DNA of 64,000 bases, taken from positions 2,046,001-2,110,000 of the forward strand of contig NZ_JAFFID010000001.1 in assembly GCF_017355955.1 (NCBI RefSeq), read 5' to 3'. Positions 62,401-64,000 of this stretch are shown here, piece after piece; the stretch's first letter is position 1, and each line of letters begins with the position of its first letter. The notes beneath the pieces were generated by a model that did not search any database, was not told the origin of the DNA, and was given only the letters and a program-made list of their open reading frames with translations. A program made the translations under genes and the position numbers. Source of the stretch: Sabulibacter ruber (lineage in GTDB: Bacteria > Bacteroidota > Bacteroidia > Cytophagales > Hymenobacteraceae).

Positions 62401-63513
62401 ATGCGTATTGACCATAAGCTATTGCTCTGGGGCTGGGTGGCCATTACTTTCTTCCTGGGAAGCTGCAGCGAGGCTTCTCCCGGGGAAGAGCCCCCTGCTG
62501 CCCTTCCGACTCCTACTCCCTACCAACTGGATCTTCCTCAGCGCTTCGGGGGCATTCAGGCGATTCCCGCCGATAATCCGCTTACCCAGGAGGGCGTGGC
62601 TTTGGGCCAAACCCTTTTTTATGAGAAAGCGCTTTCTGCCAACAACACCATGTCCTGCGGAAGCTGTCACCAACAGCAATTCGCCTTTACCGATGGGCAG
62701 GCCGTAAGCAAAGGAATTGACGGTATTGCCGGCACGCGCAGCGCCATGTCATTGGCCAATCTGCTGTGGGTCTCCCAGTTCAACTGGGACGGCGGACCAA
62801 AGTCACTGGAAGAACAAGCGAAGATTCCGCTAGAGAGCCCTATTGAACTGCACCAGAACCTGGATGTTGCCGTAGCCAAATTGCAGGCCACAGAGAAATA
62901 CCCAGCGCTATTTGAAAAGGCTTTTGGCAGAGGGCCCATCACCAAAGAGAACCTGCTTAAAGCCCTAGCCCAGTTTACCCGCACGCTCATCTCCTCCAAC
63001 TCCAGGTTTGACCGCTACCAGGAGGGCAAGGAAAACCTAACCGTAGACGAGTTATTGGGCATGCGCCTCTTCCTCACACACCCAGACCCCAACATCAGCC
63101 TGCGCGGCGGCAACTGCGGCGACTGCCACGGCGGCACCCTGCAAACCTTTAACACGTTCCATAACAACGGGCTGGATGCCGAACCCAAAGACGCGGGCCG
63201 GTGGCTGATTACGGGCAAGGAAAGTGACCGAGGCAAGTTCAGGGCACCTTCGCTCCGCAACATCGCGCTTACCGCACCCTACATGCACGATGGTCGGTTC
63301 AAGACCCTGGAAGACGTGTTAAACCATTACAATGAGCACGTAAACATGCAGGACCCTAACCTGGACCCACTCATTGAAGAAGCCCGTAATGATTTCGGGG
63401 GCGCCACGCTAGGGCTAACGGCCGAGGAGAAGCGGCAAATCATTGCCTTTCTGCACACCCTCACAGATGAAACCTTCGTCAAAGACCCTCGCTTCTCTGA
63501 CCCTAATAAGTAA
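62401..63513 (+). CDS. diheme cytochrome c peroxidase (MauG/CcpA/MbnH-like), lipoprotein
   Basis: A 370-residue periplasmic lipoprotein (lipobox FLGSC). Two heme motifs: CGSCH near residue 84 and CGDCH near residue 238. LRNIALTAPYMHDGRFKTLE is the conserved peroxidase/MauG segment. The family reduces peroxide or performs MauG-type oxidation of a partner protein. The next gene encodes an MbnP-like lipoprotein, which points to an MbnH-type role, modifying a Trp of the partner for metal binding; that is an inference from the pair. Confidence 0.9.
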   Translation: MRIDHKLLLWGWVAITFFLGSCSEASPGEEPPAALPTPTPYQLDLPQRFGGIQAIPADNPLTQEGVALGQTLFYEKALSANNTMSCGSCHQQQFAFTDGQAVSKGIDGIAGTRSAMSLANLLWVSQFNWDGGPKSLEEQAKIPLESPIELHQNLDVAVAKLQATEKYPALFEKAFGRGPITKENLLKALAQFTRTLISSNSRFDRYQEGKENLTVDELLGMRLFLTHPDPNISLRGGNCGDCHGGTLQTFNTFHNNGLDAEPKDAGRWLITGKESDRGKFRAPSLRNIALTAPYMHDGRFKTLEDVLNHYNEHVNMQDPNLDPLIEEARNDFGGATLGLTAEEKRQIIAFLHTLTDETFVKDPRFSDPNK

Positions 63514-63531
63514 GCCAAGAAACACGTTTCC

Positions 63532-63562
63532 GCCCTGTTTTCTTTAAACCACACCTGAAATG
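63532..63562. repeat. dispersed palindromic element between the peroxidase and MbnP-like genes
   Basis: GCCCTGTTTTCTTT then AAACCACACCTGAAATG, 19 bp after the peroxidase stop. Confidence 0.6.
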
Positions 63563-63616
63563 GCGAACAGCCTACGTTCGCACCATACAGAATCCCCCAC
63601 TTTCTATCCTACAATT

Positions 63617-64000
63617 ATGAAGTCACGTTTTACTTTTGGTAAAAACCTTTCCGCTGCTTTCCTCCTGGTGCTTGCCCTCTTTTCCTGGAGCTGCTCAGAC
63701 GATGACGAATCTACTGTCGCGGAGCCTAGTCAGGTCACGCTGGCTTTTCAGCACACCTTTAACACGCAGCCTTTCGCGCTAGAACAGGAATACACCAACG
63801 CGCACGGGCACCGAGTGAAGTTCCACGCCTTCCGGTACTACATCAGTAACGTGAAGCTTACCCGCCCAGACGGCACCACCTACGAGGAACCCAACAGCTA
63901 CCATCTCATCGAACGCACCGCCGATCACACCCAGGAGAGTTTCACCCTTCCGGATGTGCCGGCGGGAACGTATACCACGCTTACTTTCAGCGTAGGCGTA
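63617..64000 (+). CDS. MbnP-like lipoprotein, 3' truncated by window edge
   Basis: The first 128 residues are visible. A lipoprotein signal (LFSWSC) is followed by VTLAFQHTFNTQPFALEQEY, then VKFHAFRYYISNVKLTRPDG, which matches the start of the MbnP (copper-binding) domain. Members pair with MauG/MbnH-type diheme enzymes; here the peroxidase gene lies 103 bp upstream on the same strand. The residues that would prove metal binding lie beyond the window. Confidence 0.8.
   Translation, partial: MKSRFTFGKNLSAAFLLVLALFSWSCSDDDESTVAEPSQVTLAFQHTFNTQPFALEQEYTNAHGHRVKFHAFRYYISNVKLTRPDGTTYEEPNSYHLIERTADHTQESFTLPDVPAGTYTTLTFSVGV

Follow-up and report, generated by a model that had tools for sequence, protein, structure and literature searches.

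A candidate copper-site operon of the MbnH/MbnP type with two diheme enzymes in Sabulibacter ruber

The window, a stretch of 64,000 nucleotides from a Sabulibacter ruber contig, ends inside a cluster of three genes on the plus strand, and the part of the cluster beyond position 64000 was taken from the same contig. H1 (62401-63513) encodes a diheme c-type lipoprotein of the MbnH/MauG type of 370 aa with an ATG start. P (63617-64375, of which 63617-64000 lies inside the window) encodes an MbnP lipoprotein of 252 aa, assigned by the Pfam family PF20243, and H2 (64380-65486, beyond the window) another diheme lipoprotein, 368 aa long and with two CXXCH motifs. Both diheme proteins were assigned by PF03150, TIGR04039, the structure 6e1c and their position in a tree. 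H2 starts 4 bases past the stop codon of P. A sequence-only reading of the window had proposed a diheme lipoprotein followed by an MbnP-domain lipoprotein, and this was borne out by the lipobox and the two CXXCH motifs of H1 and by the match of full-length P to PF20243 at 170.9 bits (gathering cut-off 27). It had also described the locus as a single MbnH/MbnP-type pair. The type is supported, but the count of diheme enzymes was incomplete, as H2 lies directly after P.

In H1 the lipobox cysteine C22 (LGSC) was located at 62464-62466 and the heme motifs CGSCH and CGDCH at 62656-62670 and 63115-63129, respectively. Alignment placed Trp129 (62785-62787) on the inter-heme Trp, Glu149 (62845-62847) on the distal catalytic Glu and Tyr310 (63328-63330) on the axial Tyr of the second heme of MauG and MbnH. 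The translation start of P is likely the ATG at 63617 and not the in-frame ATG upstream at 63560, because the former begins a lipoprotein signal that ends at Cys26 (63692-63694, CSDDDE). The window end splits P, and the residues that decide its nature fall outside the window since all of them are at 64016 or beyond: H134 at 64016, M148, W150 and W152 at 64058-64072 and H179 at 64151, on the plus strand. Downstream of H2 a gene of the disulphide isomerase family (PF06491) was found. Upstream of H1 lie, judging by their sequences, an rpsT-like and a pyruvate-kinase-like gene. Three CCP_MauG proteins are encoded in the S. ruber genome, i.e. H1, H2 and one on another contig. This third protein (C145:937315-937767, in a frame of ~600 aa) has Tyr at the second-heme column, and a Tyr replaces its inter-heme Trp.

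H1 matched the PF03150 (CCP_MauG) profile with 196 bits (E 6e-58) and H2 with 189 bits. For both proteins TIGR04039, which describes the MbnH family, was the top-scoring NCBIfam model. The scores of 283.6 bits for H1 and 230.4 bits for H2 are below its cut-off of 362.85 bits, and for this reason neither is filed as an MbnH equivalog. The best PDB match was 6e1c in both cases (E 1.3e-55 over residues 33-368 of H1; E 1.2e-44 for H2). One study (PMC6405878) ascribes a Tyr-His second heme to MauG and to BthA, whose deposited structure is 6NX0, and a Met-His second heme to canonical peroxidases. Taken as the column of MauG Tyr294 and BthA Tyr463, the second-heme ligand column of H1, H2 and their relatives contained Tyr in 191 of the 192 rows and Phe in one. 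Among the references, Met was found in the peroxidases of Lawsonia and Parabacteroides distasonis and Tyr in P. yeei MauG. The distal Glu was present in 191/192 rows, the remaining row having a gap. As H1 and H2 each carry two CXXCH motifs, the Glu and the aligned Tyr, both are predicted to be Tyr-His enzymes of the MbnH type.

In a careful tree of 44 rows the enzymes were resolved into three clades, MbnH (support 99/98), H1 (99/96) and H2 (99/98), which together with the Deinococcus enzymes formed one branch (96/96). MauG, the CcpA-type enzymes and a Hymenobacter plasmid peroxidase fell outside this branch. The order of the clades differed between trees: a quick tree joined H1 with MbnH (84) and the careful one H1 with H2 (86/84). 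Because H1 and H2 form separate clades, they are by this phylogeny not the outcome of a recent duplication. A CcpA-type identity was ruled out by the Tyr, instead of Met, at the second heme and by the placement in the tree, in agreement with the expectation that the peroxidase would group apart from classic CcpA. Orthology with MauG was likewise rejected, as the MauG model TIGR03791 gave 178.8 bits for H1 and 205.1 bits for H2 against a cut-off of 443.85, and MauG lies outside the branch of H1, H2 and MbnH. By eye, no mau genes were recognised among the ORFs neighbouring the trio.

P is the only PF20243 match in the S. ruber genome, and the part inside the window alone gave an E-value of 8.5e-25. 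Against TIGR04052, the MbnP equivalog model, P scored 62 bits with a curated cut-off of 140, and it is therefore filed under the wider Pfam family, outside the equivalog. Searched as a single sequence against the PDB, P found no relative (one unrelated match, E 0.45), and a first profile reached 7l6g at an E-value of only 0.15. Stronger results came later from a profile-profile alignment of 42 Bacteroidota relatives with four canonical MbnPs (M. parvus, Ideonella, Trichormus and Pseudoalteromonas), which gave 98.9% probability (E 2.4e-17, 202 columns) and placed WxW on WxW and HIG on HLG. The title of 7l6g in the fold library is 'MbnP from Methylosinus trichosporium'. The MbnP of M. parvus, which is encoded inside an mbn operon, matches 7l6g very closely (537 bits), and the diheme protein encoded beside it likewise matches 6e1c (673 bits); these similarities tie the two structures to the methanotroph pair. 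The fold was compared with a homologue standing in for P, the Hymenobacter pini protein, which is 38% identical to P (tblastn). Its AlphaFold model (255 aa, pLDDT 91.1) superimposed on 7l6g with a Z-score of 18.0 (2.8 A, 211 residues), and the next entry had a Z-score of only 5.4. On the strength of the profile-profile match and the model of this relative, P is assigned to the MbnP fold family.

P carries the WxW motif of MbnP as W150 and W152, and the first Trp of this motif we take to be the kynurenine site. Residues were counted in 90 rows from Hymenobacteraceae and 78 from the phylum, all obtained by a profile search that did not require WxW. W150 was Trp in 90/90 family and 74/78 phylum rows and W152 in 84/90 and 71/78; H179 was His in 79/90 and 76/78, and M148 was Met in 82/90 and 63/78. 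H134, within an NH motif, and H179, within HxG, correspond to His residues that are invariant in the four canonical MbnPs. The NH motif is kept in P and its near relatives, and occurs in 18/90 family and 12/78 phylum rows. Past the lipobox Cys26 no Cys is present in P, and the four-Cys motif with the CM methionine, found in 4/4 canonical rows, is absent. This absence puts the Met ligand of P in doubt. If the CM Met is a copper ligand, the copper site that P is predicted to have must differ from that of canonical MbnP. The Trp and ligand residues sought past 64000 on the suggestion of the sequence-only reading were thus encountered in the form of WxW and both His, and the absence that would have spoken against it was not seen; among the ligands, doubt attaches to the Met alone.

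Of the MbnP rows that have a diheme gene in the vicinity, 142/156 kept the set of W150, W152 and H179 (14/156 were incomplete), as opposed to 2/13 rows without such a gene. The latter are family rows with no diheme gene within ~6 kb, and 11/13 had lost W152 or H179. They amount to three independent enzyme losses, in two of which the motif is lost as well, and the link is not significant. The NH His at position 134 and a C-terminal HxH tail of MbnP mostly occurred one or the other and seldom together. In raw counts, which ignore kinship, the 90 family rows comprised 2 with NH and HxH, 16 with NH alone, 46 with the HxH tail alone and 26 with neither, and the 78 phylum rows 1, 11, 25 and 41, respectively. 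This pattern may reflect one metal ligand replacing the other. P itself is rich in His (9 residues), and an HGH segment (H63 and H65) is common to three relatives in the genus; extra metal binding by this segment is possible. In Bacteroidota, acidic residues after the lipoprotein Cys direct surface display. The acidic residues that follow C26 in P (CSDDDE) accordingly suggest surface export, and acidic residues after the Cys were found in 64/80 family MbnP rows with a lipobox versus 26/201 lipobox-like neighbouring ORFs.

PF20243 was found in 77 of the 296 Bacteroidota genomes sampled and in 71 of 120 Hymenobacteraceae genomes. For the phylum, one place per genome was considered in 75 of the 77 genomes (S. 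ruber and one other were already in the family sample, and extra copies were left out). A diheme gene directly followed MbnP on the same strand in 75/75 places; 66 were plain P-H, and in 6 a further diheme gene lay beside one MbnP. The pair of MbnP and a diheme enzyme is a known and widespread kind that is ordinary in Bacteroidota. About 80 further loci were found with a pattern, and they were excluded from the motif counts because this pattern itself contained WxW; among them, unlike in the phylum sample, 13 MbnPs had no diheme gene in the stretch read.

The family sample consisted of 86 Hymenobacteraceae regions, covering all places listed apart from one fragment and S. ruber itself. With the types assigned by a score difference of >60 bits, checked in the tree for the rows of the quick tree, H1-type and H2-type enzymes occurred together in 52/86 regions. 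Their orders were P-H2-H1 (29), H1-P-H2 (17), H1-P-P-H2 (4), H1-H1-P-H2 (1) and H2-H1-P (1). The remaining regions had only an H1-type enzyme (14; directly after P in 12 and as H1-P in 2), only an H2-type enzyme (7) or no diheme gene (13). In the genus of the window MbnP was present in 6 of 16 sampled genomes, in all 6 in the order H1-P-H2, and within the genus the trio exists in two diverged versions, both of which contain H1 and H2. Two enzyme types per MbnP are a speciality of the Hymenobacteraceae, and this is the unusual part of the locus. What is new here is that two enzyme lineages accompany one MbnP, in two gene orders across the family, and that this MbnP lacks the four-Cys segment. 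Among the matches listed in a literature search, none described an MbnP locus with two enzymes. In four family regions (L131, L133, L163 and L177) two MbnP genes in tandem are flanked by H1 and H2. In the H1-H1-P-H2 region, from genome G003, the H1 is in two overlapping pieces (L132:4145-5244, oriented), which indicates that it is broken or affected by a sequencing error.

No copper gene lies beside the trio in the S. ruber genome, and the TonB-receptor neighbours that the earlier reading advised to look for past 64000 were not there. The methanobactin synthesis model MbnB gave a best match of 23 bits across the whole genome with a cut-off of 325, on which a methanobactin operon was rejected; as far as MbnB goes, the observation that no methanobactin genes were visible extends beyond the window. 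In relatives copper-linked neighbours were encountered. The row in D. radiodurans reads MbnP, diheme enzyme, hypothetical gene, CopC and CopD, and in D. grandis a gene annotated for copper resistance lies between MbnP and the diheme enzyme. A TonB-receptor cluster was near 12/75 phylum places, and a representative was best matched by a copper-receptor model, at 76 bits against a cut-off of 472. SCO1 was near 10/161 MbnP regions and a YtkA-like lipoprotein near 11/75 phylum places. The wider use in copper handling that had been suggested for the pair thus agrees with the neighbours in relatives, but nothing at the S. ruber trio itself points to copper.

On these grounds the trio is probably an MbnH/MbnP-type copper-site operon with two MbnH-type enzymes, in which peroxide-driven conversion of W150 to kynurenine would create a copper site on P. 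After export, P would reside in the outer membrane as a lipoprotein. H1, H2 or both, as Tyr-His diheme enzymes, would react with peroxide to a high-valent state and, through electron transfer over a long range, oxidise the first Trp of WxW (W150) to kynurenine. The kynurenine and nearby His, possibly Met, residues would then form a Cu(I) site. What was observed in the trio and its relatives is the gene order, the sequences, the family and (on a relative) fold of P, the aligned heme ligands, the conserved residues and the linkage. The kynurenine, the Cu(I) and the role of peroxide are inferred from the M. trichosporium pair, in which MbnP reportedly carries kynurenine at the first Trp and binds Cu(I) with a His/Met ligand set. 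Several findings argue against this reading: the lack of an adjoining copper gene in S. ruber, the missing four-Cys/CM segment, the scores of P, H1 and H2 under the NCBIfam equivalog cut-offs, the association of a lost enzyme with a lost motif, which comes from three independent losses and is not significant, and the fold comparison on a relative 38% identical to P.

The trio resembles the M. trichosporium pair in the MbnP fold (via the relative), WxW, NH and HxG of P, in the top PDB match and second-heme Tyr of H1 and H2 and in the tight linkage of the genes. It differs in having two enzymes, in being made up of lipoproteins, in the lack of a detectable methanobactin operon and in a P without four-Cys/CM, with all three proteins below the equivalog cut-offs. 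MopE/SACCP and CorA/CorB of methanotrophs are similar in that the gene of a copper protein on the cell surface, with a kynurenine made from Trp, adjoins one for a diheme peroxidase (for CorA, PMC3912023). Unlike the WxW of P, the CorA ligands given there are Kyn62, H64 and H114, with W-x-H spacing, and according to PMC3621798 the sequence of MbnP shows no marked similarity to MopE or CorA. MauG shares the Tyr-His second heme and the use of partner-protein Trp residues as substrate (PMC6405878); its partner is methylamine dehydrogenase, unlike that of H1 and H2, and it is no member of their branch. The Deinococcus loci also combine MbnP with a diheme enzyme and have CopC/CopD-type neighbours. 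They differ from the trio in having one enzyme and in belonging to another phylum, and neither of the two MbnP signals read has a lipobox.

The most serious alternative, to which we give somewhat less than an even chance, is that only one of H1 and H2 modifies P and that the other has a different substrate or is an idle copy. It competes with the idea that both act on P, not with the kynurenine mechanism as such. As the H1-only regions (12 P-H1 and 2 H1-P) and the 7 H2-only regions among the 86 indicate, either type can be the sole partner, and outside the Hymenobacteraceae one enzyme suffices in the 66/75 plain P-H places. It is at odds with the retention of the heme motifs, Glu and Tyr in both enzymes, with their co-occurrence in 52/86 regions in two different orders and with the presence of both in each of the two diverged trio versions of the genus.

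That the enzymes oxidise P to another product, such as the hydroxylated or cross-linked Trp of MauG substrates, or serve a metal other than copper, appears unlikely. P shares the fold and the motif frame of the kynurenine-forming MbnP, and the neighbours in relatives are linked to copper. In its favour, both Trp residues of WxW are kept almost everywhere, H2 received a fairly high score from the MauG model (205 bits, under the cut-off), and P may lack the copper Met that canonical MbnP has. Very improbable, finally, is the view of H1 and H2 as ordinary peroxidases that clear H2O2 from the periplasm, with P as an unrelated lipoprotein. The PF03150 membership and the distal Glu agree with it, and the Tyr-His enzyme BthA also turns over peroxide, according to PMC6405878. 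The Tyr instead of Met at the second heme, the grouping of H1 and H2 with MbnH and not CcpA and the diheme-MbnP linkage in 75/75 places all contradict it.

MbnP-diheme pairs have been described by way of methanotrophs, and here they appear as a standard operon of Bacteroidota. The copper-site reading of the trio predicts a testable conversion of Trp to kynurenine outside methane metabolism, and the two-lineage form of the Hymenobacteraceae raises the question of whether two diheme oxidases can work on one protein. A more speculative extension, which we rather doubt, is that of a two-step cofactor machine in which H1 and H2, as separate lineages, act on one MbnP, e.g. H1 converting W150 to kynurenine and H2 acting on W152 or a second site, with a leader ORF that elsewhere places P-H operons under copper control. 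If true, the copper centre would be unlike the single-kynurenine site of methanotrophs and suited to a P without four-Cys/CM, and the leader ORF, with its CxGxC and proline-proline end, would exert copper control through a nascent peptide. To our knowledge copper control in Bacteroidota has been little studied, and the leader-like family offers a handle on it.

The leader-like ORFs are exported-looking, ~125 aa long, have CxGxC and a C-terminal [HR]PP and precede MbnP or TonB receptors; examples are L249:5392-5763 and L172:5420-5797, with 70 others of the same family. These 72 proteins occurred in 65/161 MbnP regions and lay directly upstream of MbnP in 57/72 cases, with a median gap of 113 bases. 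C-x(8-12)-C-x(2-3)-C was found in 72/72 and Pro-Pro within ten residues of the end in 71/72, and a terminal [HRKQ]PP was present in 65/72 versus 10/440 other ORFs of similar length. An alignment of 28 rows showed no variation at C, C, G, C or the terminal PP. The family is present in 119/292 Bacteroidota genomes. It is absent from the trio itself, and the single S. ruber copy (C111:672351-672716) lies 1.4 Mb away, upstream of a TonB receptor. Two members scanned gave no Pfam or NCBIfam match above cut-off. In selected plus-strand cases with suitable gaps, 9/15 of the leader-to-MbnP gaps folded at a z-score of -2.2 or lower. In plan, with a Cys motif and C-terminal prolines, the family resembles CruR, which has CXXC and a C-terminal RAPP, precedes a TonB receptor and occurs in operons with MbnPH-like genes (PMC9426467), and CutF, with CxxxC and a proline-rich end (PMC9973294). 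No sequence similarity was found to the single DUF2946 protein compared. By this analogy it is possible that the family represents a copper-sensing leader ORF of Bacteroidota.

An unclassified barrel-like protein with an N-terminal CDICGCFMG motif (L178:7763-8767, L150:3863-4858 and others) was found near 63/161 MbnP regions, mostly downstream of the diheme gene; two members scanned had no Pfam or NCBIfam match. Several MbnH-type diheme proteins are publicly annotated as 'methanobactin export MATE transporter MbnM' (NZ_CP092970.1, NC_007410.1, NZ_CP088082.1 and other plasmid records), which is apparently a misnomer.
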